Shown here piece after piece: positions 9 to 50,747 of a DNA stretch of 56,449 bases (position 1 is the first letter of the stretch; every line of letters starts with the position of its first letter). The DNA is taken from positions 1 to 56,449 of the forward strand of contig JACPQZ010000033.1 of assembly GCA_016190205.1 (NCBI GenBank), given 5' to 3'. This DNA is from Candidatus Omnitrophota bacterium (GTDB lineage: Bacteria > Omnitrophota > JACPQZ01). The notes beneath the pieces were generated by a model. It was given only the letters and a program-made list of their open reading frames with translations, had not been told where the DNA came from and made no database searches. The translations under genes and the position numbers were made by a program.

Positions 9-1064
9 ATGACCTATCGTGAAGCTCTGTTCGAGAGCATGCACGAAGCCCTCGAACGACACGAAGAGGTTGTTCTTTTGGGGCAGGGGGTGGATGACCA
101 CAAGGGGACATTTGGAACGACACTGGGTCTGGCCCAGAAATTCGGCTCGCGCCGTGTTTTAGATACGCCCCTATCGGAAGAGGGGATGACCGGCATAGCG
201 ATCGGGGCGGCCCTGAACGGTCTCTATCCCATCCAAACTCATATCCGTGCCGATTTTGCTTTTCTAGCCATGAATCAGATTGTCAATCTTGCCGCTAAAT
301 ACAAGTACATGTTCGGGGGCCGGTTTGAGGTGCCCATGCTGATTCGGATGGTCGTGGGACGAAGCTGGGGGCAGGGGGCGCAGCACTCTCAAAGCCCGCA
401 ATCTGTTTTTTCGCATATTCCCGGTCTCACGGTGATCATGCCGGCTCATCCCGAGGTCGTCTTGAAGTCCTATTCGTATATTGTCTCCCGGCATCGGGGA
501 CCGGTGATCTCGCTCGAGCATCGCCTCCTGTATGACTTGAAATTCCGGGTCATGAATGGTTCCGTTTCGAAAGATGAATCTCCTTTGAGAACCAGGCTGA
601 TTCGATCAGGACGTGATGTCACGATTCTTGCGACGTCGATTATGGTTTTGGAGGCGGAACGCGCGGCGGATTATCTGGCGCGGGAGGCGAAGATCGAGTG
701 CGAAATTATCGATCTAAACTGCGTTTCACACCCGGACGCAAACATGATTTGTGAGAGTGTAAAAAAGACCGGACACCTGCTGGTAGCCGACACCGGTTGG
801 CAGGCGTATGGGGTCTCTGCCGAGGTCACTCGAATCATCTGCGAATACGCCCCGTCTTTACTTAAGGCCCCCGTGGTGACGCTGGGAATGAAACCGTCGC
901 CCTGCCCCACGGCCAAGAGCCTGGAAGATGTCTATTATCCCAATCAAGGTGTTCTGATAGATGCCATCGCCCGGCTCGTGACGGGAAAGAAGGATCACTC
1001 CATTTCTCTTCCGGCCGAACGGTCGATGGCGGATGTGTACAAGCGTTTCAAGGGCCCTTTCTAA
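9..1064 (+). CDS. ThDP-dependent 2-oxoacid dehydrogenase E1 beta subunit (orphan)
   Basis: This 351-residue protein has the length and layout of a pyruvate or 2-oxoisovalerate dehydrogenase E1 beta subunit: a pyrimidine-binding ThDP fold in the N-terminal half and a transketolase C-terminal fold from about residue 200. The loop PLSEEGM (54-60) carries the glutamate that activates the ThDP aminopyrimidine, and WGQGAQHSQSPQ (120-131) matches the conserved histidine-serine loop of the family. An alpha subunit is needed for activity; none lies downstream, so it may be just upstream of the window. A paralogue at 32116-33180 shares the loops and the terminal GPF. Embedded among sugar genes and without E2 or E3, it more likely serves acyl or acyloin transfer to a sugar than central metabolism (inference). 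The start has a close AAAGGA. Confidence 0.9.
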   Translation: MTYREALFESMHEALERHEEVVLLGQGVDDHKGTFGTTLGLAQKFGSRRVLDTPLSEEGMTGIAIGAALNGLYPIQTHIRADFAFLAMNQIVNLAAKYKYMFGGRFEVPMLIRMVVGRSWGQGAQHSQSPQSVFSHIPGLTVIMPAHPEVVLKSYSYIVSRHRGPVISLEHRLLYDLKFRVMNGSVSKDESPLRTRLIRSGRDVTILATSIMVLEAERAADYLAREAKIECEIIDLNCVSHPDANMICESVKKTGHLLVADTGWQAYGVSAEVTRIICEYAPSLLKAPVVTLGMKPSPCPTAKSLEDVYYPNQGVLIDAIARLVTGKKDHSISLPAERSMADVYKRFKGPF

Positions 1065-1079
1065 GGGCAGAGGACCACG

Positions 1080-2069
1080 ATGCGGATCTTAATTACCGGA
1101 ATTACCGGCATGGTGGGGAGTCATCTGGCCGATTATATCCTGGCCCGCCACCCCACGGTAGAAGTTCACGGGCTGGTGCGTTGGCGAAGCCCCCGTGACC
1201 ACATTAAGGAGATCGAGTCTCAAATTATTCTTCACGAGGCCGATCTGAATGACTTGAATTCTCTCGTGACGCTGGTCAGGAGGGTGAAACCGGAACGCAT
1301 CTTTCATCTGGGGGCACAGTCTTATGTGGGAATGAGCTTTAACGCGCCTGCCCAGACCCTAGAGACCAATATCATCGGAACGACCCATCTCCTGGACGCG
1401 GTCCGGATAGCGGGAATCGATCCCAAGATTCATATTTGCAGTTCTTCGGAAGTCTATGGGCAGGTCCGGGAGAATGAGGTGCCCATCCGGGAGGACAATC
1501 CGTTCCGGCCCGCCAGCCCCTATGGCGTTTCCAAAGTGGGTGAAGACATGATCGCCTTCCAGTACTTTACTTCCTACGGCGTGCAGACCATCCGTACGCG
1601 CATGTTCACTCATACGGGACCGCGGCGCGGGGATGTCTTTGCAGAGAGTGCGTTTGCCAAACAGATCGCCGAGATTGAAGCGGGGATTCGTGAAGGCCCG
1701 GTGAAGGTGGGGAATCTCGCCAGCGTCCGTACCGTGGCCGACGTCCGGGATGCGGTTCGTGCCTACTGGCTTTTGCTCGAAAAGTGCCCGGCGGGCGAAG
1801 TCTATAACATAGGAGGAAACCAGACGGTCACCGTAGGCGAAATTCTGGAGCGCCTTAAAGGCATGGCCACGTGCCGGATCACGCATGAAAGAGATCCGGC
1901 TTTAATCCGCCCGTCCGATGTCACCCTGCAGATCCCGGACACTACCAAGTTCAGGCAAGCGACGGGCTGGGAACCCGAAATCCCTCTGGAGACTACCTTG
2001 CGGGATTTGTTGGACTTTCACCGAAATCGGACCCGGGAGGGAAGGACGTCACCGCTGACCCATGTCTGA
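1080..2069 (+). CDS. GDP-mannose 4,6-dehydratase-like extended SDR
   Basis: This 329-residue extended short-chain dehydrogenase has the Rossmann fingerprint TGITGMVGSH at residues 6-15 and an SSSEVYG motif followed by the catalytic pair Y148 and K152 (YGVSK). The pattern HTGPRRGDVFAESAF is typical of GDP-mannose 4,6-dehydratases. Such enzymes convert an NDP-hexose, or in heptose loci GDP-D-glycero-D-manno-heptose, into the 4-keto-6-deoxy sugar in the cytoplasm. A second GMD-like gene at 17363-18382 has its Y and K at the same residue numbers, so this looks like a paralogous pair that may act on different sugars. The start is the ATG behind AGAGGA. The gene overlaps the next start by 8 bases. 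The family call is firm; the substrate is not known. Confidence 0.9.
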   Translation: MRILITGITGMVGSHLADYILARHPTVEVHGLVRWRSPRDHIKEIESQIILHEADLNDLNSLVTLVRRVKPERIFHLGAQSYVGMSFNAPAQTLETNIIGTTHLLDAVRIAGIDPKIHICSSSEVYGQVRENEVPIREDNPFRPASPYGVSKVGEDMIAFQYFTSYGVQTIRTRMFTHTGPRRGDVFAESAFAKQIAEIEAGIREGPVKVGNLASVRTVADVRDAVRAYWLLLEKCPAGEVYNIGGNQTVTVGEILERLKGMATCRITHERDPALIRPSDVTLQIPDTTKFRQATGWEPEIPLETTLRDLLDFHRNRTREGRTSPLTHV

Positions 2070-4044
2070 GACGGTTGTGGGACTAGTGCAAATCAACAAT
2101 AGCTTTTCGGGGCAGAATTATCTGCCGCTGTCCGTCGGTGTGCTGCAGGTCTATGCCCAGAAATACCTCGAGCGGCCCGATAGATTTCAATTTCTCCTGC
2201 CTGTCTACACGCGCGTGTCCGTCGAGCAAGCCGTCAACCGTTTGAAAGACGCAGACGTCGTTCTTTTTAGTACCTATGTTTGGAATATCCGGATTTCCCT
2301 CGAGGTGGCGAGGACGCTCAAGCGCTTAAAGCCCGAAGTGATCGTCGCCTTTGGGGGACCCCAGGTACCCGAGCGCCCCCGGGAAGATGAGGTATTCCTG
2401 CGGGCACACCCGTTTATCGACGTGGCGTGCCATGGCGAAGGCGAGCAACCGGTCGTCAAGATCCTTGAGCGAAGCGGGACGGACGATTGGCAAAGTGTCC
2501 CTTCGACAAGTTTCATTTCGAAAAAGGGAAGTTATGTTCAAAATCCTAAGGGGTCCCGTTTGAATGACCTGGCCGCCGCGCCTTCACCTTACCTAGGGGG
2601 GGCGTTCGCCCTGCTGATGGAGGCCCATCCGGAGGAACGCTGGATCGGCTTATGGGAAACGAACCGGGGATGCCCGTTTTCGTGCACCTTCTGCGATTGG
2701 GGCTCGGCCACGCAAAGCAAGGTGTACAAGTTTGACCTGGAGCGTTTGTTGAGAGAGGTCGACTGGTTTGCCGAGCATCGAATCGAATACGTCTTCTGCT
2801 GTGATGCCAATTTCGGAATTCTGCCGAGGGATATTGACATTGCGCGGTATGTCTCCGGGACGAAAGAAAGGGAAGGCTACCCGCACGCCTTGTCCGTGCA
2901 GAACACGAAAAACGCGACCGAGCGGGCCTATCAGGTCCAGAAGATCCTGTCCGATGCGGGACTGAACAAAGGGGTGGATATCGCCTTGCAATCGGTGGAC
3001 CCCAAGACCCTCGAGAGTATTAAGCGGGGCAATATCTCGACGGAGACCTATCAGGAATTACAGCGTCGGTTTACGCGGGACGGTATCGAGACTTACACAG
3101 ATGTGATCTTAGGGCTGCCGGGGGAATCGTACGGTTCTTTTGTCGAAGGCGTCTCGCGTATCATCGAGAACGGGCAGCACAACCGCATCCAATTCAACAA
3201 CCTGTCCATCCTGCCGAATGCCGAAATGGGGGACCCCGAGTACCAGAAAAAATACGGTCTCGTTACCGTCGAGACCCAGGTCGTCAATATCCATGGTTCC
3301 CTGGATGCGTCGGAGGATGAGATCTTCGAGACGCAAGAGCTTGTGGTGGCGACGCGCGACATGCCCCAGGAGGACTGGGCGCGCGCCCGCGCCTTTTCAT
3401 GGATGGCCGCACTGCTTCACTTCGACAAAGTCCTGCAAATACCCATTGTGCTCATTCATAACATTTGCTCCGTCAGACCACGGGAGCTTATCGAGCGCTT
3501 CTTGGACGATCGGCTCGCAGATGCATCGGTTCTGGCCTCCGTCCGCCATTTTTTCCTAGAGAAGGCGCGAGACATCCAAAAAGGGGGCGCGGAGTACTGT
3601 CAGTCCCGCGCGTGGTTGGGCATCTGGTGGCCGGCTGACGAGTATATCCTGATTAAATTAAGTCGGGAAAAGCAGCTCGATGCCTTCTACCGGGAGGCGG
3701 AAAGACTCCTCGGGAGTTTTTTGGAAGAGCACCACCTGGGTTTGCCTTCGGCCATTTTGAAGGAGGCAGTTCAGCTGAACCGCGAGCTCATAAAACAGCC
3801 GTTCCATACGACGGATCTCCATTTGGATCTTTCTTATAACATTTGGGAATTTTATCAGGCCTCCCTCCGCGGCGGCGCCCTGGCGCTCATGGAGCGGCCC
3901 AATCGGTGCGTCATCAACCGCACCGAAAAGCAGTGGTCCACATGGAATGACTGGTGCCGTGAGGTGATTTGGTGGGGCAACAAGAAGGGGGCGTATATGT
4001 ACGGAAACAACATTGTAGAGCCCCAGCTTGCGGGACATTATTGA
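2062..4044 (+). CDS. B12-binding-domain radical SAM protein
   Basis: This is a 660-residue protein. Residues 1 to about 150 look like a cobalamin-binding Rossmann domain (hydrophobic strands, GGPQVPERP, then a GEGE turn), without a visible DxHxxG motif, so any cobalamin would be bound without the histidine ligand. The radical SAM core follows, with the CxxxCxxC cluster motif at C204, C208 and C211 inside NRGCPFSCTFCDWG. A long C-terminal region of about 230 residues has no domain I can name. B12-dependent radical SAM enzymes often methylate unactivated carbons or rearrange substrates, and here the substrate would be a sugar or lipid precursor (inference). A homologue with the same cysteine spacing lies at 54875. 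It starts 8 bases before the previous stop. Confidence 0.9.
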   Translation: MSETVVGLVQINNSFSGQNYLPLSVGVLQVYAQKYLERPDRFQFLLPVYTRVSVEQAVNRLKDADVVLFSTYVWNIRISLEVARTLKRLKPEVIVAFGGPQVPERPREDEVFLRAHPFIDVACHGEGEQPVVKILERSGTDDWQSVPSTSFISKKGSYVQNPKGSRLNDLAAAPSPYLGGAFALLMEAHPEERWIGLWETNRGCPFSCTFCDWGSATQSKVYKFDLERLLREVDWFAEHRIEYVFCCDANFGILPRDIDIARYVSGTKEREGYPHALSVQNTKNATERAYQVQKILSDAGLNKGVDIALQSVDPKTLESIKRGNISTETYQELQRRFTRDGIETYTDVILGLPGESYGSFVEGVSRIIENGQHNRIQFNNLSILPNAEMGDPEYQKKYGLVTVETQVVNIHGSLDASEDEIFETQELVVATRDMPQEDWARARAFSWMAALLHFDKVLQIPIVLIHNICSVRPRELIERFLDDRLADASVLASVRHFFLEKARDIQKGGAEYCQSRAWLGIWWPADEYILIKLSREKQLDAFYREAERLLGSFLEEHHLGLPSAILKEAVQLNRELIKQPFHTTDLHLDLSYNIWEFYQASLRGGALALMERPNRCVINRTEKQWSTWNDWCREVIWWGNKKGAYMYGNNIVEPQLAGHY

Positions 4045-4063
4045 GAACTCGATCAGGTATGAA

Positions 4064-5254
4064 ATGAAACGGCTTGCACAGTCAGCGCATCATTTGGAAG
4101 GTCAGCCGATGTTCAGAGTCCTGGCCAAGGTCCAGGAGCTTGAGCGCAAGGGGCAGGATATTATCCATTTTGAGATCGGAGATCCTGATTTCGCCAGCCC
4201 CGGGCATGCCGTCGAGGCAGCCGTCCGCGCCCTGCGCTCGGGGAAGACGCATTATGCGAATTCCATGGGAATCGTGGAACTCCGCGAGGCGCTCCGTGAG
4301 CACGCTGAGAGGGAATGGGGTATTAGACCCTCATTAGACCAGATCCTCGTGGTGCCGGCCAATGCCATCGTGTATCTCGTCATCCGCTGTGTGGTTAATC
4401 CGGGCGAGGAGGTGATCGTTCCGGATCCCTGTTTTCCGACGTATCTTTCTGCGATCCATTTTATCGGGGCCCGGCCCGTGCGTGTCCCGCTGGATGAGGC
4501 CCGGGATTTTAAGCTGGATCCGGAGGCGGTCCGCGAAAGGATCACGGACCGTACCCGCCTCATCATCCTGAATTCGCCGCACAATCCCACAGGCTCGGTC
4601 ATGTCTCCGGGCGACGTGGACACGGTGGCGGCCCTGGCAGAGGAAAAGGATGTGTATCTTTTGAGCGACGAGGTCTATCGCAAGGTCGTTTATGGAGGGA
4701 GCGTGCCGCGTTCGCCTTCGGTCCGGGACGGCTGCAGGAAGCGAACCGTGATCTTGAACAGTTTTTCAAAATCCCATGCCATGTCGGGCTGGAGGCTGGG
4801 ATATGCCATCGGGCCCGAAGAGGTGATCGAAAAGATGAATCTCCTACTGCAGACGATCATCTCCTGCGTGCCGCCCTTTATTCAATACGGAGGCATAGGC
4901 GCCCTGGATCCTGACAGCGAAGAGCGGGTGGCGGGCATGGTGCGTGAATTTCAAAAACGGCGGGATGCGATGGTGCATGGCCTCAACGGCCTGCGGGGCG
5001 TCTCGTGCCGGACACCGGGTGGCGCGTTCTACGTCTTCCCCGATATCAGAGGAACGGGTTTTGGTTCGGCGGAATTTGCCGAGCTTATGCTGGAGAAGGC
5101 AGGCGTTGCCTTGCTGCCGGGGCCGCACTTCGGGGACCATGCGGAAGGGTATGTCAGGCTCTGCTACACGATTCCCGTTGGCCAGATCGAGAAGGGTATC
5201 CAGCGCATGCACCACGCACTGGACGAGATCCCCGTGAGCCCTGCGCTATCATGA
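4064..5254 (+). CDS. Class I/II PLP-dependent aminotransferase
   Basis: This 396-residue fold-type I aminotransferase resembles the aspartate aminotransferase group. It shows NSPHNPTGS (the NPTG phosphate and carboxylate loop), the DEVYRKVVYG aspartate region and the PLP lysine K236 in SFSKSHAMSGWRLGY. I chose the ATG at 4064 behind an AGGT. The frame is open back to a TTG at 4028, which would overlap the radical SAM gene by 17 bases. Unlike the DegT enzymes at 28853 and 29986, this class normally handles amino acids and 2-oxoacids. It could therefore supply or consume a 2-oxoacid for the ThDP enzyme that follows directly, with overlapping ATGA (inference). The true amino acid is unknown. Confidence 0.9.
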   Translation: MKRLAQSAHHLEGQPMFRVLAKVQELERKGQDIIHFEIGDPDFASPGHAVEAAVRALRSGKTHYANSMGIVELREALREHAEREWGIRPSLDQILVVPANAIVYLVIRCVVNPGEEVIVPDPCFPTYLSAIHFIGARPVRVPLDEARDFKLDPEAVRERITDRTRLIILNSPHNPTGSVMSPGDVDTVAALAEEKDVYLLSDEVYRKVVYGGSVPRSPSVRDGCRKRTVILNSFSKSHAMSGWRLGYAIGPEEVIEKMNLLLQTIISCVPPFIQYGGIGALDPDSEERVAGMVREFQKRRDAMVHGLNGLRGVSCRTPGGAFYVFPDIRGTGFGSAEFAELMLEKAGVALLPGPHFGDHAEGYVRLCYTIPVGQIEKGIQRMHHALDEIPVSPALS

Positions 5255-6975
5255 TGCGCGTTTCGGATTACATTGCAGGATTTTTGCTTCAGCGCGGGGT
5301 GAAGGACATTTTCATGCTGACCGGAAACGGCGCCATGTATTTGAACGATGCTATTTCGCAGTCCGGTATCCGTTATGTCTGTGCCCGCAACGAGGCTGCG
5401 GCGCCCATGATGGCCGAGGCGTACGCGCGGGTGAAACAGTCTCTGGGGGCCGTGTGCGTGACGAGCGGCCCCGGATCCACGAACGCGGTCCCTGGTTTGG
5501 CGGAGGCGTGGGTGGATGCGGCCCCGATCCTCATTTTGTCTGGGCAGGTGCAAAGGAGCCATACGACGCACAATGCGGGGCTTAAGGGGTTGCGCACGTT
5601 TGGCACGGCCGAAATCAATATCATACCCATCGTCAGCACGCTCACCAAATATGCGGTCATGGTGAACGAGGCAGAATCCATCCGATATCATTTGGAAAAG
5701 GCCTACACCCTGGCCACCACCGGCCGCCCCGGACCTGTGTGGCTGGACATCCCTATGGATATTCAGTATGCCCCTGTCGACCCTGAACATCTTAAGGGTT
5801 ATACGCCGCCCCAGGAGCGGACCGCTGATCTCGAGGTTCATGTGGACGCGTTGTTGGAGAGGCTCGCGCGCGCGAAGAGGCCTCTTTTGATCGGGGGTCA
5901 TGGAATCCGCCAGGGGAGGGCGTCTACGGAGTTTCGTGAACTGGTCGAGCTTTTACATGCCCCTGCCATTTTCTCCAGATTTGGGCAGGACCTCCTGCCT
6001 TTTTCGCATCCGTTTAACCTGGGGCAGGCGGGGGTGAAGGGCTCGAGGTACTGCGGGTCCGTCATGAAGTCGGCTGATCTTGTCATCTCCCTGGGGTGCC
6101 GTCTGGCAGTTCAGATGGTGGGTCATAAGTTCGACGCCTTTCACCCCGGTGCCAAGGTGGTGATGGTGGATTTGGAAAGGGACGAGCTGGATAAGCCGGG
6201 GGTAAAGCTGGATCTCGCCATCCAGGCCGATGTCAAACCTTTCCTTACGAGGCTGGTCTCGCGCCTTAAGCAGGAAACGCTTCCCGATTGGAGCGATTGG
6301 CTGGGACGGTGTCAGGAGCTCAAGCGGGATTATCCCATGGTAACCCCTGCCCAGCGAAGAAATCCGATCGACCTCTATTATTTTATGTCACGGCTGGACG
6401 CCCTGGCAGACCGCCATCATATTTTCGTGACCGACGCAGGTTCGAATTACTACGTGGGCGGCCAGGTGTATCACTTTGAAAAGGGTCAGCGCGAGATCAC
6501 CTCGGGGACCTTTGCGGCCATGGGACTTTCCATTCCGCTCGCGATCGGCGCAAGCATCGCCCGCCCGGATGCCCAGATCCTGGCCGTCACCGGAGACGGG
6601 TCGCTGGAGTTAAACATTCAGGAGCTCAAGACCCTCTCGCATTACGGTTTAAACGTCAAGCTCTTTGTCATCAACAATGGGGGTTATGTCTCCATGCGCA
6701 ACTGGCAGGACGGCCATTTTGAAGGGAGGCGCATCGATACCGAACAAAACACAGGGATAGGGACCCTCAACCTTCAACGTATCGCGCACGCATTCGATAT
6801 GCCCTACGACCGGATTGAGCGGGTGGAAGAGATTGACGGTAAGGTGGGCGAGCTCATGCAGGGGAACGGGCCTGTCTTTGCAGAGGTCTTCTGCGATCAA
6901 AACCAAAGAATAGTCGAGCCTATCAAGGATCTGTCCTTCAATGCCAAGCAAAAAGAGTATTCGATTCCTGTTTGA
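5251..6975 (+). CDS. Acetolactate synthase-like ThDP enzyme
   Basis: This 574-residue protein has the three-domain layout of acetolactate synthase and related ThDP enzymes. The catalytic glutamate E48 lies in CARNEAAAPMMAEAY, the central domain spans roughly 190-330, and the ThDP/Mg site runs from GDG (448-450) to NN (475-476). The open frame extends back to 5005, but the start is the ATG at 5251, which overlaps the previous stop as ATGA and gives the canonical N-terminus (SDYIAGFLLQRGV). The family decarboxylates a 2-oxoacid and ligates the two-carbon unit to an acceptor. In yersiniose A biosynthesis a homologue (YerE) attaches such a unit to a keto sugar. With a sugar cluster on both sides and no regulatory subunit, a sugar carboligase is more likely than valine biosynthesis (inference). 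Confidence 0.9.
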   Translation: MMRVSDYIAGFLLQRGVKDIFMLTGNGAMYLNDAISQSGIRYVCARNEAAAPMMAEAYARVKQSLGAVCVTSGPGSTNAVPGLAEAWVDAAPILILSGQVQRSHTTHNAGLKGLRTFGTAEINIIPIVSTLTKYAVMVNEAESIRYHLEKAYTLATTGRPGPVWLDIPMDIQYAPVDPEHLKGYTPPQERTADLEVHVDALLERLARAKRPLLIGGHGIRQGRASTEFRELVELLHAPAIFSRFGQDLLPFSHPFNLGQAGVKGSRYCGSVMKSADLVISLGCRLAVQMVGHKFDAFHPGAKVVMVDLERDELDKPGVKLDLAIQADVKPFLTRLVSRLKQETLPDWSDWLGRCQELKRDYPMVTPAQRRNPIDLYYFMSRLDALADRHHIFVTDAGSNYYVGGQVYHFEKGQREITSGTFAAMGLSIPLAIGASIARPDAQILAVTGDGSLELNIQELKTLSHYGLNVKLFVINNGGYVSMRNWQDGHFEGRRIDTEQNTGIGTLNLQRIAHAFDMPYDRIERVEEIDGKVGELMQGNGPVFAEVFCDQNQRIVEPIKDLSFNAKQKEYSIPV

Positions 6976-6984
6976 AAGGCGGTT

Positions 6985-7815
6985 ATGGAAATCCGCGATT
7001 TAGAAGAAAAGGCCCGTCGCGTTCGTCTGTCGGTTTTGGAAAGCATCGTGGCCAGCGGCAAGGGCCACATCGGGGGGACCTATTCCTGCACCGACCTCCT
7101 GGTGGCCCTCTATTATGCGGGGATTTTAAGATTCAATTTCCGTGACCCCCGGTGGCCAGACCGGGACCGGTTTCTGATCGGAAAGGGGCACGCCTGCCTT
7201 GCGCTTTATTCCATTTTTACGGACCTGGGGCTCCTTCCTGATGCGCGCTTTGATACTTACGGACAGGACGGCGGGTTGGGCGGTCAACTCGATACCTCCA
7301 TCCCCGGCGTCGAGTACAACACGGGTTCCTACGGCCATGTGTTGGGGATAGCTGCAGGCATTGCCCTCGCGGCCAAGATGGATCAGAAAAGCCTTAGGGC
7401 CTACGCACTCATGGGTGACGCGGAAATGTACGAGGGTTCGGTGTGGGAGGCCATTGTCTTTGCGGGTCACCACAAGCTGGACCGTTTGGTGGGTATCATA
7501 GACCGCAATCGCTTGTCGACGACGGACATGTTGGACGACGACAGCTTTTTCAAGGACTTCAAAGAAAAGATGCGTTCCTTTGACTGGGATTGTCATGAGT
7601 TCAACGGACATTCCTTCCCCGAAATCCTGGATGTGTTCGACCGAATCCGGAACGCCCTCCGGCCGGTTATGCTCATCGCCCATACCGTCAAGGGTAAGGG
7701 CATTTCATTCATGGAAAACGGCATCAAGTGGCATCATGGCGTTCCCACGGCCACAGAGGCCGAGCGCGCCAGGAGGGAGCTTGTGGGAAAGGATCAGGTA
7801 GCCCATGTCAGATAA
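6985..7815 (+). CDS. Transketolase, N-terminal (ThDP-binding) subunit
   Basis: At 276 residues this is the separate N-terminal half of a split transketolase. It shows GKGHIGG (25-31), IGKGHA (65-70) and the ThDP/Mg motif GDAEMYEGSVWEA (144-156) with DRN at 173-175. Together with the next gene it transfers a two-carbon ketol unit from a ketose phosphate to an aldose. In this setting it could make sedoheptulose 7-phosphate, the entry substrate for heptose synthesis, or transfer a ketol unit to a sugar to branch or lengthen it. Both roles are inference. The ATG follows AAAGGCGG and lies 9 bases after the ThDP enzyme gene. Its stop overlaps the next start by 11 bases, as expected for a pair made in equal amounts. 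Confidence 0.92.
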   Translation: MEIRDLEEKARRVRLSVLESIVASGKGHIGGTYSCTDLLVALYYAGILRFNFRDPRWPDRDRFLIGKGHACLALYSIFTDLGLLPDARFDTYGQDGGLGGQLDTSIPGVEYNTGSYGHVLGIAAGIALAAKMDQKSLRAYALMGDAEMYEGSVWEAIVFAGHHKLDRLVGIIDRNRLSTTDMLDDDSFFKDFKEKMRSFDWDCHEFNGHSFPEILDVFDRIRNALRPVMLIAHTVKGKGISFMENGIKWHHGVPTATEAERARRELVGKDQVAHVR

Positions 7816-8728: not shown

Positions 8729-8749
8729 AGGACGCGCTCGTGTTAGAAA

Positions 8750-10791: not shown

Positions 10792-10806
10792 GGAGCGATT
10801 GATTAC

Positions 10807-10812
10807 GGAGGG
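10807..10812 (+). promoter_or_regulatory. Ribosome binding site supporting a TTG start
   Basis: GGAGGG lies 6 bases before the TTG at 10819. It decides the unusual start of the methyltransferase gene, because no ATG or GTG is as well placed. Confidence 0.7.
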
Positions 10813-10818
10813 CTTACA

Positions 10819-11580: not shown

Positions 11581-11643
11581 CCCTGATCTCTTGGAGGTTG
11601 TTCCGGGTGCGGAACCTTTGCAATCGCTCAACAGGTAGGATTC

Positions 11644-22054: not shown

Positions 22055-22056
22055 CC

Positions 22057-25297: not shown

Positions 25298-26297
25298 GGT
25301 GTTGGTCACGGGCGGCGCGGGGTTTATCGGAAGCCATCTCACCGAACGGCTCATTGGTGAGGGTCACGAGGTCGTCGTGTTGGACAGTTTGGCAACAGGG
25401 CGCCTCGAAAACTTGGCGCATTTGAGCGGCCATCCCCGCCTGCGTTTTCAGCGCGTGGATGTTGCGAATTTCGACGAGATCCACCCGCTCTTTACCGGCG
25501 TCAGGCGTGTTTTCCACCTGGCGGCGCTGGCCGATATCGTACCGTCCATTCAAAAACCGCTTCTTTATCACCGGGCCAACGTAGAGGGAACCGCCTCTGT
25601 GCTTGAGGCCTCACGCAGGGCCCGCGTCCACTCTGTTGTTTATGCGGCTTCCTCCTCTTGTTACGGTGTTCCGGACCTCACCCCGACGCCCGAATCTTCA
25701 CCGATGCAGCCTCTCTATCCCTATGCCCTTACCAAGCGGTTAGGGGAGGAGATAGCCATGCATTGGGCGCATACATACCGGATGCGCGTGATCTCGCTCC
25801 GTCTCTTTAATGTCTATGGACCCCGCTCCCGGACCTCGGGCGCCTATGGGGCTGTCTTGGGTGTGTTCTTGGCTCAGAAGTTGGCCGGGAAACCGTTCAC
25901 CGTAGTCGGCGACGGGATGCAGACTCGGGACTTTACATATGTGACGGATGTGGCGGACGCCTTTGTCAAGGCGTCGGAATCGGATTTGTCCGGCAGGGTG
26001 TTTAACGTGGGATCGGGCGGAACGTATTCAATCAAGCGGCTGGTTGAACTCTTGGGCGGGCCTGTCGTACACATCCCGAAGCGCCCGGGCGAGCCGGACT
26101 CGACCTTTGCGGATACTACGGCGATCGAGCAGGCCCTCGGGTGGAGGGCCCGCATTTCCTTCGAAGAGGGCGTCAGGCGCGTGCTTGAGCATATCGGGGA
26201 TTGGGAGGGGGCCCCCGTGTGGACGCCCGACACCATCCTGGAAGCCACGCATGAGTGGTTCGAATGTTTGACACCGCAGGAGACCGTTCAAAAATAG
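25290..26297 (+). CDS. UDP-glucose 4-epimerase-like SDR
   Basis: This 335-residue extended SDR has VTGGAGFIGSH (6-16), the serine loop AASSSCYGVP (119-128) and intact Y145 and K149 in YPYALTK. The pattern LFNVYGPRSRTSGAYGAV is close to UDP-GlcNAc/UDP-Glc 4-epimerases of the WbpP and GalE groups. The likely reaction is C4 epimerisation of an NDP-sugar with tightly bound NAD. The C-terminal 30 residues go past the usual end of the family. It overlaps the preceding gene by 8 bases, and the HldE-like gene starts 11 bases after its stop. Confidence 0.9.
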   Translation: MDRVLVTGGAGFIGSHLTERLIGEGHEVVVLDSLATGRLENLAHLSGHPRLRFQRVDVANFDEIHPLFTGVRRVFHLAALADIVPSIQKPLLYHRANVEGTASVLEASRRARVHSVVYAASSSCYGVPDLTPTPESSPMQPLYPYALTKRLGEEIAMHWAHTYRMRVISLRLFNVYGPRSRTSGAYGAVLGVFLAQKLAGKPFTVVGDGMQTRDFTYVTDVADAFVKASESDLSGRVFNVGSGGTYSIKRLVELLGGPVVHIPKRPGEPDSTFADTTAIEQALGWRARISFEEGVRRVLEHIGDWEGAPVWTPDTILEATHEWFECLTPQETVQK

Positions 26298-26308
26298 GAA
26301 TTTGGAGT

Positions 26309-27835
26309 ATGGCAGCCCATCAAAAGATTAAGAACTTGACTGAACTGGGCGAGATCCTGGGAAAGGCCCGTCAGGAGGGAAAGAGGACTGTACTGTGCCA
26401 TGGTGTGTTTGATCTCATGCACCCCGGGCATATTCTCCACATCGCGGCGGCACGGAAGCAAGGGGATGTGCTGGCCGTAACCATCACCCCGGACCGCTTC
26501 GTCCGAAAAGGTCCGGGCCGGCCTGTTTTCAGTGAAAAGCTCAGAATTCAGACTGTTGCGTCCCTTCAAGACGTGGACTACACGGCGCTCAATGAGTGGC
26601 CGACGGCCGTGGAGACCATTGCGCGTCTGAAGCCCCATGTCTATGCCAAGGGAAACGATTACACGAATCCTGCGGACGACCTGACAGGCCGTATCGTGGA
26701 TGAAGAGAACGCCGTGCGTTCGATTGGCGGGGAGATCTTCTTCACGAATGAGGAATCCTTCAGCTCCAGCCGTCTGATCAACCAGTTCTTTAGTACGTAT
26801 CCTCCCCAAACGGAGAAGTATCTCAAATCGTTCCGGAGTCGTTACTCGGCCGACCAGGTGATCGATTGTGTCCGGGGTCTTCAAGATCTCAAGGTTCTCC
26901 TGGTGGGTGAGGCCATCCTGGATCAATACCGCTATTGTACCCCCATGGGTAAATCTCCCAAGGAGACGATCGTCTCGACACGTTTTGAGAATGAGGAGAT
27001 CTTTGCCGGAGGGTCGCTCGCGATTGCCAATCACCTGGCAGGTTTTTGTAAAGAGGTCACGCTGATTACGATGCTGGGGGAGAACACCGATCAGCGCCGC
27101 TTCATCGACTCGAAGCTCCGGCCCAATGTCCAGCTCAAAGCGGTTGTGATGAAGGACCGGCCGACGATCACGAAGCGCCGTTATTTAGAGCCTAACTTTT
27201 TGACCAAGATGTTTGAAGTTCAATACCTGGATGACCGTCCCGTGCCGGACGCGGTGGAAAAGGACATCCGATCGCGCTTGGAAAAGTGCCTGGAGGGCCA
27301 TGACTTTCTGGTCACGGCGGATTTCGGGCATGGCTTGATGACGAAGGCCCTGCGTGAATTTGTCTCATCCCACGGAAAATTTCTCGCGCTCAACACCCAG
27401 AGCAACAGCGCCAATCTGGGGTTTAATACTGTGACGAACTACCAGCGGGCCAATTTTGTCTGCATCGATGAGCCCGAATTGAAACTTGCGGCTGCCCGTC
27501 AATATGGTGATTTGCACAGGTTGACGGATGAGGTCCGCAGGCGCATTCAAGTCGACGCCTTTCTCGTCAGCCGGGGGCCGCTCGGTTCACTTATCTTTTC
27601 GGACCACGAGCCGGTGGTGCACACCCCGGCGCTCGCGACCAGGGTCGTGGACCGCACGGGGGCGGGAGACGCCCTCTTCTCCATCGCATCTCCCTGTGTC
27701 TACAAGAAATATCCGGTCGAGGTGGTTGGATTTCTGGGTAACTGTGTCGGGGCCCTGGCGGTTGAAATTGTCTGCAACCGCGATCCTGTTGATCCGACGC
27801 TCCTCTTAAAATTTATCAAGAGCGTGCTCATGTGA
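26309..27835 (+). CDS. HldE-like bifunctional protein with inverted order: cytidylyltransferase domain then PfkB kinase domain
   Basis: This is a 508-residue protein. Residues 25-160 form a nucleotidyltransferase with the HxGH motif HPGH at 38-41 (HGVFDLMHPGHILHI). Residues 170-508 form a ribokinase-fold kinase with AGGSLAIANHLAGF, the heptose kinase segment RPTITKRRY and the active-site GAGD at 451-454. E. coli HldE has the same two activities but with the kinase first. The protein could phosphorylate a heptose 7-phosphate at C1 and add a nucleotide, giving ADP- or CDP-heptose. I chose the ATG at 26309 with AGGA about 9 bases upstream; the open frame begins at 26255. It would be a second, separate route of heptose activation beside the GDP route. 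Confidence 0.88.
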   Translation: MAAHQKIKNLTELGEILGKARQEGKRTVLCHGVFDLMHPGHILHIAAARKQGDVLAVTITPDRFVRKGPGRPVFSEKLRIQTVASLQDVDYTALNEWPTAVETIARLKPHVYAKGNDYTNPADDLTGRIVDEENAVRSIGGEIFFTNEESFSSSRLINQFFSTYPPQTEKYLKSFRSRYSADQVIDCVRGLQDLKVLLVGEAILDQYRYCTPMGKSPKETIVSTRFENEEIFAGGSLAIANHLAGFCKEVTLITMLGENTDQRRFIDSKLRPNVQLKAVVMKDRPTITKRRYLEPNFLTKMFEVQYLDDRPVPDAVEKDIRSRLEKCLEGHDFLVTADFGHGLMTKALREFVSSHGKFLALNTQSNSANLGFNTVTNYQRANFVCIDEPELKLAAARQYGDLHRLTDEVRRRIQVDAFLVSRGPLGSLIFSDHEPVVHTPALATRVVDRTGAGDALFSIASPCVYKKYPVEVVGFLGNCVGALAVEIVCNRDPVDPTLLLKFIKSVLM

Positions 27836-28860
27836 GTCCGGGAAGGCCTTTGTTCAAGAAGGTAGCCATAACGGGAGGCGCGGGTTACGTAGGCAGTGCG
27901 CTGGTACCCCATCTTCTTCAGGAAGGTTATGATGTGACGGTGATGGACCTCTACCTTTATGGAAGGCATGTGTTTAAAGGCGTTGAACATGCGGATCGCC
28001 TGCATGAGGTGGAGGTCGACATACGGGATGAAACCGCTGTGGCAAGGCACCTCGCCGGCGTGGATGCCGTGATCCATCTGGCCTGCGTTTCAAACGACCC
28101 GAGCTTTGAGCTTAACCCGGCGCTCGGACGGTCCATTAATTATGATGCCTTCAGGGGCCTCTTGCGTGCCGTATCGAGCCATCGCATCAAGCGCTTTATT
28201 TATGCCTCGAGTTCCAGCGTGTACGGGGTCAAGGAAGAGCGGGATGTCCACGAAGACATGACGTGTGAACCCCTCACGGACTATTCGAAGTATAAATTAC
28301 TGTGTGAGGACCTGCTCAAGCAAGGGCGTTGGCGAGATATGGAATGGGTGATCCTTCGGCCGGCCACGGTGTGCGGCTGGGCCCCGCGCCTGAGGCTGGA
28401 TCTTACCGTGAATACCCTCACGATCCATGCCCTGGTTCGCAAGAAGATCACGGTTTTCGGAGGAAGCCAGTTGCGTCCGAACATTCACATCCAGGATATG
28501 GCGGCGGCCTACGGGCTCCTCTTGGAGGCCCCCCGGGAGGCAGTCAAGGGTGAGACATTCAACATTGGCACCCAGAACTGCAGCGTGTCGGAGATTGCCG
28601 ACATCGTGCGCTCTGAGATAGGCGACGGAAGCGTTACGATCGTTACGGAACCAACCGAGGATCTTCGTTCCTACCACATCAACTCGGATCGAATACGCAG
28701 GACGCTCGGCTTCAAGCCGCGCTGGACGATTCAAGATGCGGTGCGCAGCCTCGTGGAAGCTTATCGGGCCGGCAAAGTCCACGACCCCCTGAACAATATC
28801 AGTTACTACAACATCAAAACCATGCAGGCACTCAAATTGGAAGAGGGGCTTTATGTCTAA
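27832..28860 (+). CDS. NAD-dependent sugar epimerase/dehydratase
   Basis: This 342-residue extended SDR has AITGGAGYVGSA (12-23), YASSSSVYGV for the serine loop and the intact catalytic pair in DYSKYK. It starts at GTG in a GTGA overlap with the HldE-like gene, and an in-frame TTG at 27850 is an alternative. The segment LACVSNDPSFELNP is common in epimerases that accompany heptose and nucleotide-sugar kinases in surface loci. The C-terminal stretch after residue 310 is longer than the family core. It precedes two sugar aminotransferase genes, so it may supply a keto sugar to them (inference). Confidence 0.88.
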   Translation: MSPGRPLFKKVAITGGAGYVGSALVPHLLQEGYDVTVMDLYLYGRHVFKGVEHADRLHEVEVDIRDETAVARHLAGVDAVIHLACVSNDPSFELNPALGRSINYDAFRGLLRAVSSHRIKRFIYASSSSVYGVKEERDVHEDMTCEPLTDYSKYKLLCEDLLKQGRWRDMEWVILRPATVCGWAPRLRLDLTVNTLTIHALVRKKITVFGGSQLRPNIHIQDMAAAYGLLLEAPREAVKGETFNIGTQNCSVSEIADIVRSEIGDGSVTIVTEPTEDLRSYHINSDRIRRTLGFKPRWTIQDAVRSLVEAYRAGKVHDPLNNISYYNIKTMQALKLEEGLYV

Positions 28861-29980
28861 AGCGATTCCCTGCGTGCGGGTGCGCTATTCCTATCTTCCC
28901 CAGCAATTTCAGGATTCAGAGGAGATTTTGAACGCCATCCGGGCACACCTCGTGAACTGCCAGTTTACGCTGGGACCTGAAGTGGAGCAGTTCGAACGCT
29001 CTTTTGCGGCACTGATCGGAGCGAGATACGCAGTCGGAGTCGGAAGCGGTACGGACGCCTTGGCCTTGAGTTTGAAGGCCCTCGGGATCGGCCACGGGGA
29101 TGAGGTGATCACGGCCGCTAATACGTTTATCGCTACGGTGGGAGCGATTCATTCGACAGGCGCCCGGCCCGTCCTGGTGGACGTCCGGCCTGATTTTACG
29201 ATCGATCCGGCCCTCATTGAACGCGCCCTCACCCCTCGGACGAAAGCGATCATTCCCGTTCATCTTACGGGCGAGATGGCGGATATGGATCCCCTTCTTG
29301 AGCTCGCCGGGCGCCGCGGGCTGCCGGTTGTGGAGGACGCCTGTCAAGCGATCGGAGCCCGATACAAAGACCGGGCGGCCGGCACGCTGGGTGCGTTCGG
29401 AGCGTTCAGCCTCCATCCCCTAAAGAATCTCAATGTCTGGGGAGATGCCGGGGTCATCGTCACAAATGAGGCTCGGTTCGATAGACAGCTTCGCCTGTTG
29501 CGTAACCACGGGCTCTCCGGCCGGGATGAGGTCGAGATCCTGGGGGTGAACAGCCGTTTGGACTCCATCCAGGCGATTGTGGGAAACCGGCTGATGGCTC
29601 AAGCGGAATCGATCACGGAGCAAAGGATCGCCAACGCCGCGCGTTACGACCGGGCGTTTGCCGCGTTAGAAGGAGATATTACCTTGCCGCCGCGCCGCCC
29701 TGAAGTCCGACGCGTGTTCCATCTCTATCAGATCTACGCCCGCCGGCGGGACGATTTATACCGGTTTCTTCTGGAAGAGGGGATTGAGGCCAAGATCCAT
29801 TATCCGATTCCTCTGCCCTTGCAGAGGGGACTTCAACCCCTGGGCTATCACCCGGGGGACTTTCCTGAAACCGAACGGCAGTCCGCTTCCTGTATCACGC
29901 TCCCTGTGGATCAGCATCTTTCGCAGGATGAGCTCGATCTCGTGGTGGATACCGTGACACGATTCTACCGGGAGGGTTGA
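28853..29980 (+). CDS. DegT/DnrJ/EryC1/StrS-family sugar aminotransferase
   Basis: This 375-residue PLP enzyme of the DegT family has GSGTDALALSL for phosphate binding (64-74), VVEDACQAIGA with the PLP-ring aspartate and the PLP lysine K191 in FSLHPLKNLNVWGD. It would transfer an amino group from glutamate to a 3- or 4-keto NDP-sugar. The next gene is a paralogue of almost the same length, and the two share TPRTKAIIPVHLTGEMADMD-type segments, so they arose by tandem duplication. It overlaps the SDR gene before it by 8 bases. The position of amination is unknown. Confidence 0.93.
   Translation: MSKAIPCVRVRYSYLPQQFQDSEEILNAIRAHLVNCQFTLGPEVEQFERSFAALIGARYAVGVGSGTDALALSLKALGIGHGDEVITAANTFIATVGAIHSTGARPVLVDVRPDFTIDPALIERALTPRTKAIIPVHLTGEMADMDPLLELAGRRGLPVVEDACQAIGARYKDRAAGTLGAFGAFSLHPLKNLNVWGDAGVIVTNEARFDRQLRLLRNHGLSGRDEVEILGVNSRLDSIQAIVGNRLMAQAESITEQRIANAARYDRAFAALEGDITLPPRRPEVRRVFHLYQIYARRRDDLYRFLLEEGIEAKIHYPIPLPLQRGLQPLGYHPGDFPETERQSASCITLPVDQHLSQDELDLVVDTVTRFYREG
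29971..29976 (+). promoter_or_regulatory. Ribosome binding site deciding a GTG start
   Basis: GGAGGG lies 9 bases before the GTG at 29986 and directly touches the TTG at 29977. The GTG is therefore the better start for the second DegT gene. Confidence 0.65.
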
Positions 29981-29985
29981 ACGAC

Positions 29986-31131
29986 GTGGCGACCGCTCCA
30001 CTTGCGACAGACGCACGGACCCGGTATCGGGTTTCGTTTACCGATTTTCCGGTCCAGTTTGAGGTCCAGGCCCAGGAGATTCTCGAGGCGATTGAGAGGG
30101 TGCTCCGGCGGGGCGATTTTATACTGGGACGCGAGGTGAGGGAATTTGAGGCCGCCTTTGCAGAGCTTGCGGGGGCAAGGCATGCGATCGGGGTCGCGAA
30201 TGGAACAGATGCCCTGATGCTTGCGATGCGGGCGGTGGGGGTCGGCCGGGGGGATGAAGTCATCACGCCGCCCAACTCATGGATCTCGTCCACTTCAAGT
30301 ATTGTGCTCATCGGGGCGAGGCCGGTCTTTGCGGATGTGGGCCCCGATTTTAACATCGATCCCGAAAGGATTGAGGCGGCCATCACTCCGCGCACCAAGG
30401 TCCTGATGCCCGTGCATCTCACGGGACGGTGCGCCGATATGGATGCCATCAACGCGCTCGCCGAACGCCACGGCTTGGTCGTGGTCGAGGATGCGGCCCA
30501 GTCCGCCGGCGCTTGTTACCAGGGACGCCCATCCGGTTCCCTGGGTCATGTAGGCTGTTTCAGTCTGCATCCCCTCAAAAATTTGAGCGGCGTGGGGGAT
30601 GGAGGTGTGGTGACGACGAATGATGATGCGATTGCCGCCAGGGTGCGGTCGCTTTCCAATCACGGGCTCCGTACCCGCGGGGTGGTCGAGCGATGGGGTT
30701 TTAATTCGCGTCTCGATACCCTGCACGCAGCGGTCCTTTTCTGTCGTCTGAAAACGCTCTCGTCCGTGATCGAGGCACGCCGCAAGAACGCGGCCCGTTA
30801 TCGCATGATGCTGCCCCCGGCGGTCATGTGTCCCGATGAACGGCCGGGGGATTGCGAAATTTATCATCTTTTCATGATCCAATGTGACCGGCGCGATGAG
30901 CTCATGCGTTATTTGGATGAGCGCGGCATTGAGGCCTATGTTCATTATCCCACGCCGATTCATCTGCAGCCGGCGAGCCGCGATTTAGGGTATCGTGTGG
31001 GGGATTTTCCAAGCGCGGAGGCGCAGGCCCGGAGGATTCTCTCCCTTCCCGTGCATCAGGGGCTTTCCGCGGAGTCAATTGATTACGTCGTCAAAACCAT
31101 CACCCGGTTTTATCAAGGAGAAAAAAGGTGA
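29986..31131 (+). CDS. DegT-family sugar aminotransferase, second tandem copy
   Basis: This 381-residue DegT-family PLP enzyme starts at GTG; a TTG three codons earlier is also open. It has VANGTDALML, VVVEDAAQSAGA and the PLP lysine K198 in FSLHPLKNLSGVGDGG. The SGVGDGG ending of the lysine loop is the usual one in the family; in the upstream copy it is changed to NVWGDAG. Its stop overlaps the E1 alpha start as GTGA, and AAGGAG lies inside its last codons. The pair could make two amino groups in one diamino sugar, or act on two sugars (inference). Confidence 0.93.
   Translation: MATAPLATDARTRYRVSFTDFPVQFEVQAQEILEAIERVLRRGDFILGREVREFEAAFAELAGARHAIGVANGTDALMLAMRAVGVGRGDEVITPPNSWISSTSSIVLIGARPVFADVGPDFNIDPERIEAAITPRTKVLMPVHLTGRCADMDAINALAERHGLVVVEDAAQSAGACYQGRPSGSLGHVGCFSLHPLKNLSGVGDGGVVTTNDDAIAARVRSLSNHGLRTRGVVERWGFNSRLDTLHAAVLFCRLKTLSSVIEARRKNAARYRMMLPPAVMCPDERPGDCEIYHLFMIQCDRRDELMRYLDERGIEAYVHYPTPIHLQPASRDLGYRVGDFPSAEAQARRILSLPVHQGLSAESIDYVVKTITRFYQGEKR
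31115..31120 (+). promoter_or_regulatory. Ribosome binding site for E1 alpha
   Basis: AAGGAG lies 7 bases before the GTG at 31128, inside the end of the DegT gene. It supports that GTG as the E1 alpha start. Confidence 0.7.
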
Positions 31132-32111
31132 CCCCAAACGGGCCCGCATCCGATGAGAAGCGAGACCTTCTTTATGCCATGCTTCGGATCCGCAGACTCG
31201 AGGAAAGGATCAAGGAGCTGTATCCCCAACAGCGCATGCGGTGTCCTTGCCACCTGACCATCGGTCAGGAGGCGATCGCAGCGGGTGTGTGTGCACACCT
31301 GGGAAAGGGGGATAAGGTTTTTGGGACCTATCGGGGACACGGGATCTACCTTGCAAAGGGGGGAGGCCTGAATGCCCTCATGGCGGAATTATATGGGAAA
31401 GACACCGGTTGCACCTCGGGTCGAGGAGGATCGATGCAGCTCATCGCTCCGGAAGTGGGTTTTGTCTGCACCTCTGCGATAGTGGGCGGGACTCTACCCA
31501 TGGCAGTGGGGGCAGCCCTGTCCGCAAGGCTTCATCAGGCTCGAGAAATTGCATTGGTCTTTTTTGGGGATGGAGCCACCGAGGAAGGGGTTTTTCACGA
31601 GAGCATGAACTTCGCAGCTCTTAAAAAATTGCCTGTGGTCTTTGTGTGCGAAAATAATTTTTACTCATGTTATACGCACCAGCGCTTTCGTCAACCGCTG
31701 GACAATATTTATAAGCGCGCCGGCGTCTATGGCATGCCGGGGGACTGTGTGGACGGTAACAATGTCGTCGAGGTTTGGCAGGCAGCGCGTGAGGCGGTCG
31801 AGCGCGCCCGGGGAGGGGGAGGTCCTTCCCTCCTGGAGTGCCGGACCTACCGCTGGCTGGAGCATGTGGGCCCCCATGATGACACACATCTGGGTTACCG
31901 CAGCGAGGAAGAAGTTCGCCAGGGAAGAGAGGAGTGTCCGATTAAGCGGCTTCAAAGGGAGCTTCAAGCGGAGAATCTCATGACGCCCGAGAAGGTGGCG
32001 CGGTGGGAGGAAGGTATAGGGCGCGAGCTGGATCTTGCCGTCGCGTTTGCCGAGCAAAGCCCGTTCCCGGATGCACGGGATCTCGCGCGGGGCGTCTATG
32101 CGGGGGAATAA
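31128..32111 (+). CDS. ThDP-dependent E1 component alpha subunit
   Basis: This 327-residue protein matches pyruvate dehydrogenase/acetoin dehydrogenase E1 alpha. It has the substrate loop TYRGHGIYLAKG (67-78), GRGGSMQL, and the ThDP/Mg motif from GDGA (147-150) to ENN (175-177). With the beta subunit that follows it forms an enzyme that decarboxylates a 2-oxoacid and passes on the acyl or hydroxyalkyl group. No E2, E3 or lipoyl protein is near, so the acceptor may be a sugar. The AviB1/AviB2 E1 pair of avilamycin biosynthesis is the known precedent for adding a two-carbon branch. The location just after two sugar aminotransferases supports this, but it remains inference. Confidence 0.93.
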   Translation: MTPNGPASDEKRDLLYAMLRIRRLEERIKELYPQQRMRCPCHLTIGQEAIAAGVCAHLGKGDKVFGTYRGHGIYLAKGGGLNALMAELYGKDTGCTSGRGGSMQLIAPEVGFVCTSAIVGGTLPMAVGAALSARLHQAREIALVFFGDGATEEGVFHESMNFAALKKLPVVFVCENNFYSCYTHQRFRQPLDNIYKRAGVYGMPGDCVDGNNVVEVWQAAREAVERARGGGGPSLLECRTYRWLEHVGPHDDTHLGYRSEEEVRQGREECPIKRLQRELQAENLMTPEKVARWEEGIGRELDLAVAFAEQSPFPDARDLARGVYAGE

Positions 32112-32115
32112 GTTC

Positions 32116-33180
32116 ATGACGGCGAGATCCCTTACTTTTTGTGAAGCACTGCGGGAGGCGCAATTGCAGGCCATGCATGAAGATCCCTCGGTGATCCTCT
32201 TTGGGCTGGGCGTGGATGATCCCAGGGCGGTCTTCGGTTCAACCCTGGGACTCAAGCAGCGCTTTGGCGAGGATCGCGTGTTCGATATGCCGCTTTCCGA
32301 AAACGGAATGACGGGTGTCGCCGTAGGGGCGGCGCTGACCGGGATGCGTCCCGTGATGACACACCAGCGGCTTGATTTTACGTTATATGCCATGGATCAA
32401 ATCGTCAATCAGGCGGCCAAAAGGTGTTATTCCTCGGGAGGACGGCAAGCGGTCCCGCTCACGATACGAGCCATCGTGGGCCGGGGTTGGGGACAGGGAT
32501 CCCAGCACTCCCAGAGTCTTCAGGCCTGGTTTGCGCATATCCCGGGTCTCAAGGTGGTAATGCCGGCCACTCCGTATGATGCCAAGGGGCTTCTTCTCGC
32601 GGCCATACGAGATCCGAACCCGGTGATTGTGATCGAGTCGCGGAAGCTCTACGACGAGGTGGGGGAGGTTCCCGAAGAATCCTACACGGTTCCGATCGGT
32701 CAGGGAATCATCTGCCAGGAAGGACAAGACGTCACGGTTGTGGCGTTTTCCAATATGGTGAGTGAGGTCAAGCGTGCCCTGCCGGCCCTCGCCAATGCCG
32801 GAGTTCATGTGGAGCTTATTGACCCGCGTACGGCTAAGCCGCTCGATCGTAATCTCATCCTGGATTCGGTGCGAAAGACCGGCCGGCTCGTGGTGGTGGA
32901 TACCGGGTGGACATGTTGCGGAATCAGTGCGGAAGTAGCTGCCATCGCGGCCGAGCAGGCTTTCAGTTCGCTTAAGGCACCCATTCGCCGTGTGGCGCTT
33001 CCTGATATCCCCACCCCCACGAGTGCTGCGCTGGAGGCAGTCTTCTATCCAGGAGTGAAAGAGATTATCCAGGCCGTGTTCGATTGTATGGGGGTGGATG
33101 GGGCCGAAAGCGCTGCAGCAACGATGGTCTCTCAAACTCAATCCCCCATGGAACCCGAAACATTTAGAGGACCGTTTTAG
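32116..33180 (+). CDS. ThDP-dependent E1 component beta subunit
   Basis: This 354-residue E1 beta subunit pairs with the alpha gene 4 bases upstream. It has the activating glutamate E62 in PLSENGM, GWGQGSQHSQSLQAWF for the conserved histidine loop and a transketolase C-terminal domain. The open frame runs from 32035, but the ATG at 32116 gives the family N-terminus. It is a paralogue of the orphan at 9-1064: the two align over the whole length, and both end in F, K or R, then GPF. The shared terminal GPF is beyond the conserved fold and could be a contact surface. It ends 20 bases before the next gene. Confidence 0.93.
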   Translation: MTARSLTFCEALREAQLQAMHEDPSVILFGLGVDDPRAVFGSTLGLKQRFGEDRVFDMPLSENGMTGVAVGAALTGMRPVMTHQRLDFTLYAMDQIVNQAAKRCYSSGGRQAVPLTIRAIVGRGWGQGSQHSQSLQAWFAHIPGLKVVMPATPYDAKGLLLAAIRDPNPVIVIESRKLYDEVGEVPEESYTVPIGQGIICQEGQDVTVVAFSNMVSEVKRALPALANAGVHVELIDPRTAKPLDRNLILDSVRKTGRLVVVDTGWTCCGISAEVAAIAAEQAFSSLKAPIRRVALPDIPTPTSAALEAVFYPGVKEIIQAVFDCMGVDGAESAAATMVSQTQSPMEPETFRGPF

Positions 33181-37360: not shown

Positions 37361-37364
37361 TAAG

Positions 37365-42746: not shown

Positions 42747-42748
42747 TC

Positions 42749-50704: not shown

Positions 50705-50747
50705 TCCCATAGCAACACCGCCGTCAGCCCTTTCGGAATCTTTCCGA

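Follow-up and report, generated by a model that had tools for sequence, protein, structure and literature searches.

The stretch of DNA studied here (the window) is the entire contig G000:C25 of a Candidatus Omnitrophota bacterium, 56,449 bases from a genome of 1.65 Mb on 76 contigs, and it carries a sugar locus with several thiamine diphosphate (ThDP)-dependent enzymes. Two gene modules are conserved in this locus. Module A comprises a GDP-heptose-type 4,6-dehydratase, an E1 alpha/beta pair, a class-I aminotransferase, a YerE-like enzyme and a split transketolase; module B comprises an HldE-like enzyme, short-chain dehydrogenases/reductases (SDRs), DegT aminotransferases and a second E1 alpha/beta pair. 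Judged from the genes alone, we think it fairly likely that the locus produces two or more types of nucleotide sugar that are C-branched by ThDP-dependent carboligation, and on the best reading these carboligations would act on nucleotide-linked keto-(deoxy)heptoses. Sugar ketones receive acyl units from three ThDP superfamilies, the YerE-like enzymes, alpha-KADH2 and, as yet unproven, the split transketolases (PMC12247030). Each is known singly; what is new is their combination with a conserved architecture, not a chemistry that has been shown. The presence of members of all three families in one very large cluster suggests unusually elaborate branched sugars.

ThDP enzymes of the locus and their housekeeping counterparts

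The main genes of the window are all on the + strand, as are all features located in it below, and in the first 34 kb they mostly overlap or lie a few bases apart. Module A begins with the E1 beta gene of pair 1 (9..1064), which has Pfam E1 beta domains and an FxGPF C-terminal tail. The first-pass annotation had described it as an orphan, and this turned out to be an artefact of the contig end. Over its bases 1-145 the window matches the first 145 bases of contig C75 in reverse complement, with a single mismatch, no other overlap length that was tried for this junction fits, and the partner E1 alpha is encoded on C75 directly upstream of E1 beta (L003:211-1152, - strand), its frame ending 73 bases ahead of the E1 beta start. 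An overlap with another contig was also sought at the right-hand end of the locus, and none was found.

The YerE-like carboligase (5251..6975, Pfam ALS-type TPP enzyme) is followed by the two halves of the split transketolase, the N-terminal ThDP half (6985..7815, Pfam Transketolase_N) and the C-terminal half (7805..8728, Pfam Transket_pyr/C). The second E1 pair, in module B, consists of E1 alpha (31128..32111, Pfam E1_dh, with an EHVGP loop) and E1 beta (32116..33180, Pfam Transket_pyr/C, with a GRGWGQ loop and an FRGPF tail). Pfam domains thus match all the ThDP genes that had been listed for the locus, and the ThDP-binding motif and catalytic Glu reported for them are intact throughout, from the YerE-like enzyme and split transketolase to both E1 pairs. 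Both pairs have alpha and beta subunits, present and intact. The enzymes had been listed as four modules of a single set; the enzymes stand, and their grouping is better described as two conserved modules (E1 with YerE-like enzyme and transketolase; E1 with HldE-like enzyme and DegT).

For each of the three enzyme types the genome encodes a separate counterpart. The reported lack of E2, E3 and lipoyl genes holds for the locus by Pfam and fails for the genome as a whole, where contig C59 carries a pyruvate dehydrogenase operon with an AceE-type E1 (1302 bits against a cut-off of 860), E2 and E3. A second split transketolase, 41% identical to the locus copy, is encoded on C49, and an acetolactate synthase 29% identical to the YerE-like enzyme on C18. 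The E1 beta family has just two full copies genome-wide, both in this locus. We therefore rejected the E1 pairs as the pyruvate dehydrogenase of the genome, given the complex on C59, and the locus transketolase as the sole transketolase of the cell, given the copy on C49. The existence of these counterparts argues that the locus copies do not serve central metabolism.

Recurrence of modules A and B

The search for the same set in other genomes, which the first-pass annotation had proposed, found E1, YerE-like enzyme and transketolase within 5 kb of one another in three other genomes. In G030, from another family of the same phylum, the module A set forms one run in the order nucleotidyltransferase, gmd1-type dehydratase, GHMP kinase, E1 alpha, E1 beta, glycosyltransferase, aminotransferase, YerE-like enzyme, N- and C-terminal halves of transketolase, methyltransferase, SDRs and RmlC-type epimerase. 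Identities to the window proteins are 74% (gmd1), 57% (aminotransferase), 69% (YerE-like), 63% and 55% (transketolase halves) and 73% (epimerase). The set is present as in G030 in G062, in the opposite orientation, and in part in G214 (E1, aminotransferase, YerE-like, transketolase); the YerE-like orthologues of these two genomes are 54% and 66% identical to the window enzyme, respectively. No paper on the combined set was found in the literature searched. Within that literature, the earlier remark that no described glycan locus with this set was known stands for the combination, with the reservations that the three families have already been reviewed together (PMC12247030) and that the set recurs in three genomes.

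The gmd1 gene (1080..2069) encodes an SDR resembling GDP-heptose and GDP-mannose 4,6-dehydratases. It keeps the catalytic S/T-x-E (as SSE) and YxxxK, and its best solved match, GDP-D-glycero-D-manno-heptose 4,6-dehydratase (7us5, E=5e-79), uses GDP-heptose. Smaller sets surround its relatives: gmd1 with E1 and transketolase, without YerE-like enzyme or aminotransferase, in G081; gmd1 with transketolase only in G374; and gmd1 adjoining E1, with no transketolase of the clade beside it, in G226 and G376 (G226 has a more distant one nearby, 36% identical). Such variation, from transketolase or E1 singly, through both, to E1 with aminotransferase, YerE-like enzyme and transketolase, is what one would expect of enzymes that each decorate one common kind of keto sugar. 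The class I/II aminotransferase (4028..5254) adjoins the YerE-like gene in G030, G062, G214 and L042, and the same pair is found on a Candidatus Ryanbacteria contig, where the aminotransferase is 50% identical. When named genomes were scanned with the YerE-like alignment, most matches were YerE-like genes that had no adjoining E1 or transketolase, or ordinary acetolactate synthases.

Co-location was counted in 384 genomes of the phylum. Excluding the genome studied here, same-genome pairs are at most 30 kb apart in 13 of 25 cases for YerE-like enzyme and E1, 4 of 9 for YerE-like enzyme and transketolase, and 4 of 12 for E1 and transketolase. These fractions are far above the simple expectation of 3.5%, which points to clustering beyond chance; the p-values are merely indicative because the genomes are related.

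Module B runs from SDRc (25290..26297) through the HldE-like bifunctional protein (26255..27835), in which the domains are swapped so that the nucleotidyltransferase precedes the PfkB kinase, SDRd (27832..28860), two DegT sugar aminotransferases (28853..29980 and 29977..31131) and the second E1 pair to SDRe (33201..34196), which resembles 4,6-dehydratases and has SSAEIYG and YxxxK. G156 also has SDRc, the HldE-like protein, SDRd, DegT, E1 alpha/beta and SDRe, at 61-74% identity. There the module B E1 is fused into one protein, and a second, module A-like E1 lies in the same 28 kb. The two E1 alpha-beta fusion genes of G156:C16 (L157/L158), about 700 aa each, stand 12 kb apart in one sugar locus. 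Two small window proteins without Pfam match, at 36798 and 37365, are also kept in G156 alongside module B. G019 and an Azospirillum oryzae plasmid carry the core of the module, accompanied by a SIS gene and the two DegT enzymes; SDRe is present in G019 and was not found on that plasmid. Full-length relatives of the swapped HldE-like protein occur in Azospirillum oryzae (L126), G019 and G156. A neighbourhood that crosses phyla in this way argues for one pathway.

Sequence signatures and the proposed branching pathway

The locus transketolase was compared with E. coli TktA in an alignment of 17 locus-type copies (16 from the phylum and one from Azospirillum sp. B510) and 11 housekeeping copies. 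Locus-type enzymes keep the ThDP and catalytic residues H26, H261 and E411, and most keep D469 and H473. TktA H461 is replaced by Gly in all 17 and is His in all 11 housekeeping copies; S385 corresponds to Ser or Thr in none of the 17 and in 10 of the 11 (the window enzyme has G and F, respectively). We take R358, S385, H461 and R520 of TktA to be the substrate-phosphate contacts, as in known transketolase structures. R358 is kept in the clade and position 520 is R or K, so that the sugar-phosphate site is altered at two of four positions only. The split transketolase of known structure from Carboxydothermus keeps His at the 461 position. The enzymes of the window, G030, G062 and G214 form a group with support 1.0 in the tree, within a wider 11-member clade (0.998). 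Plasmid matches such as that of Rhizobium sp. TH2 belong to operons for sugar uptake and were left out of the evidence.

Both E1 betas of the window have a GxxWGQ loop and an FxGPF end. An FxGPF/Y tail together with a GWGQ loop was found in 15 of 24 E1 beta copies, including one from Azospirillum and one from Streptomyces (GPY), and in none of five E2-linked controls; a second Azospirillum copy also has an FxGPF-type tail. All five controls have a GHSxSD loop in E1 alpha and a GSGTGAAAQHS loop in E1 beta, and the window pairs have neither, with EHVGP at the position of the former in E1 alpha. The pairs were therefore rejected as the pyruvate dehydrogenase- or acetoin-type E1 of a 2-oxo acid dehydrogenase complex, as both the E2-type loops and an E2 neighbour are absent. 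On the Streptomyces griseofuscus plasmid pSGRIFU1 (L127, 10986-13032), a GPY-tail E1 pair lies near genes for an acyl carrier protein, a ketosynthase and a condensation domain.

Among solved structures the YerE-like enzyme matches JanthE best (8rph, 340 bits, against 261 bits for acetolactate synthase I, 6lpi). The ARFDDR motif of acetohydroxyacid synthases reads CRLAVQ, and GDG...NN and the catalytic Glu are intact. The adjoining class-I aminotransferase keeps the pyridoxal phosphate Lys and the C-terminal Arg for the alpha-carboxylate, so its substrate is probably an amino acid or 2-oxo acid rather than a sugar. This fits a supplier of the YerE-like enzyme, and the aminotransferase is a probable source of its 2-oxo acid donor.

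In the pathway that we propose, GmhA-, HddA-, GmhB- and HddC-type enzymes would lead to GDP-heptose in module A, which the gmd-type dehydratase would turn into a 4-keto-6-deoxy sugar. Ketones of this scaffold could then accept acyl units from the three ThDP enzymes: acetyl from pyruvate through the E1 pair, an acyl group from the 2-oxo acid provided via the aminotransferase through the YerE-like enzyme, and a hydroxyacetyl unit through the split transketolase, whose donor could be something other than a sugar phosphate. Ketones would be regenerated, or branches reduced, by SDRs and aldo/keto reductases, and the RmlC-type epimerase and methyltransferases would complete the sugar. For module B, the HldE-like enzyme and SDRs would give a second nucleotide sugar, in which SDRe may make the 4-ketone, the second E1 pair attach a branch of two carbons, to be aminated by one or both DegT enzymes. 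These genes are most simply explained by branching of nucleotide-linked keto sugars, in series or in parallel. It is a more tentative idea that module A works as an assembly line, in which the E1 pair, the YerE-like enzyme and the split transketolase would act in turn on one GDP-linked 4-keto-6-deoxy-heptose to give one sugar of at least 12 carbons with several branches; the related loci with one or two of the enzymes would be shorter versions.

Several points weigh against branching. One related E1 pair, with a GPY tail, is found in a part of a Streptomyces plasmid where no sugar genes are obvious. The acetolactate synthase Arg is retained in the YerE-like enzyme, and the Trp in three of four module A copies. 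Phosphate binding is not certainly abolished in the transketolase clade, which still has R358 and a basic residue at position 520, and action of split transketolases on keto sugars is only proposed in the literature (PMC12247030).

An unlikely alternative is that chains are lengthened before activation: the split transketolase, and possibly the E1s, would make heptulose or octulose phosphates that GmhA-, HddA- and HddC-type enzymes convert into nucleotide sugars without branches. Sedoheptulose 7-phosphate usually comes from transketolase, and the split transketolase shares its locus with GmhA-, HddA-, HldE- and GmhB-like enzymes. The first-pass annotation had named this production of sedoheptulose 7-phosphate, which is improbable for the locus copy because a housekeeping split transketolase is encoded elsewhere and the clade has lost the phosphate contacts at H461 and S/T385 that housekeeping copies keep. 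Moreover, if E1 transferred an acetyl unit from pyruvate to an aldose phosphate, the product would be a 1-deoxy ketose, for which this route allows no activation at C1.

We also give a low probability to the ThDP enzymes making acyl or acyloin blocks for substituents, for instance hydroxyacyl groups on amino sugars, instead of C-branches on the ring. The amino-acid type of the class-I aminotransferase, the related E1 pair in a polyketide-like plasmid region of S. griseofuscus and the pair of B12 radical SAM enzymes in the window, whose family resembles C-methyltransferases, would suit such a role. Against it, the E1 pairs adjoin 4,6-dehydratase-like genes in both modules, and Pfam scans of the window found no acyl-CoA ligase or acyl carrier protein near either module. 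Finally, that ordinary pyruvate dehydrogenase E1, acetolactate synthase and transketolase came to lie in the cluster by chance agrees with their domain families, which are those of central metabolism, and is very improbable and largely refuted by the housekeeping counterparts and by the distinct clades in which the locus copies stand and recur with other sugar-locus genes.

Branching by several carboligations, as the first-pass annotation had suggested, thus gains from the conserved synteny, the housekeeping counterparts and the transketolase and E1 features, and loses the orphan E1 beta and the sedoheptulose 7-phosphate role that had gone with it. If it is correct, surface glycans can carry sugars built by several carboligases in series, and the locus would offer a route to complex tertiary alcohols, which are of interest for biocatalysis. 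Hydroxyacetyl transfer to keto sugars by split transketolases is an open question (PMC12247030), for which module A is a compact testbed outside Streptomyces with a residue signature. The FxGPF tail, the EHVG loop and the H461G replacement are sequence markers with which such enzymes may be traced elsewhere.

Other genes of the locus and comparison with known systems

The scaffold of the locus sugars is probably of the heptose type. The window encodes two HddA-like GHMP kinases of the heptose 7-phosphate kinase type (9724..10791 and 18817..19836), an HddC-like nucleotidyltransferase fused to a GmhB-like phosphatase (16137..17381) and a GmhA-like SIS isomerase of the sedoheptulose 7-phosphate isomerase type (42623..43330). 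All these domains score under the NCBIfam curated cut-offs for specific heptose enzymes, so the assignment is probable and not proven. Tailoring enzymes include an aldo/keto reductase (8750..9727), which adjoins the split transketolase in Azospirillum sp. B510 too, a methyltransferase (10819..11580, weak Methyltransf_24), an aldo/keto reductase fused to an RmlC-type 3,5-epimerase (11644..13299, the RmlC part being 73% identical to the separate epimerase gene of G030), SDRa (13292..14284), which is kept together with the split transketolase, a second gmd-like SDR, gmd2 (17363..18382), and a sugar C-methyltransferase (20708..22054, Methyltransf_13/14).

A B12-binding radical SAM protein (2062..4044) is closest to the KedN5-like C-methyltransferase family, far below the curated cut-off. 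A second one, at 54875-56449 and cut by the contig end, is also nearest to that family and far below the cut-off. Two NDP-hexose 2,3-dehydratases (50490..51407 and 52431..53258) both come with Gfo/Idh/MocA proteins and are typical of antibiotic 2,6-dideoxy sugar pathways. A CTP_transf_3 cytidylyltransferase is fused to a cupin domain at 45397-46569, and the proteins encoded at 36798-37862, 39542-41056 and 47581-49743 gave no Pfam match. A promoter and terminator scan of the first 20 kb of the window found sites no commoner than in shuffles.

Upstream of E1 alpha, contig C75 continues with about 10 kb more of sugar genes, followed by LptD and other, unrelated genes. The presence of LptD implies an outer membrane, which makes a role in lipopolysaccharide plausible, and the locus is probably a surface-glycan sugar cluster for lipopolysaccharide.

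The GDP-6-deoxy-heptose pathway (HddA, HddC, GmhA, GmhB, 7US5) is represented in the window by homology in its enzyme types. The window differs from it in fusions (HddC-GmhB, swapped HldE), in duplicated kinases and dehydratases and in the added ThDP carboligases. With YerE (yersiniose A), ErwE (erwiniose) and JanthE (8RPH) the YerE-like enzyme has in common the three-domain ThDP decarboxylase fold, the sugar-locus context and the GDG and Glu motifs. Its similarity to JanthE is distant, and it has the canonical GDG where JanthE has CDG. Unlike these three enzymes, it has a fixed adjoining aminotransferase and split transketolase, and its acceptor is probably a heptose rather than a CDP-3,6-dideoxyhexose.

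The E1 pairs are likened to alpha-KADH2 (AviB1/AviB2, KbDH) by family and gene context: an E1 pair without E2 or E3 in the locus, an intact ThDP site and adjoining 4,6-dehydratase-like genes. The pair of module B has DegT aminotransferases beside it, as a transaminated branch would need. In contrast to alpha-KADH2, pairs of the window type belong to loci of the surface-glycan type in uncultured bacteria and Azospirillum and not to antibiotic clusters. Similar to the split transketolases proposed for miharamycin and amipurimycin, the window enzyme lies in a sugar cluster near oxidoreductases and apart from the housekeeping transketolase. The 13 published split transketolase candidates are all from Streptomycetes (PMC12247030), whereas the window-type enzymes come from a different phylum and from Azospirillum, and their genes are linked to those for YerE-like enzymes and E1.

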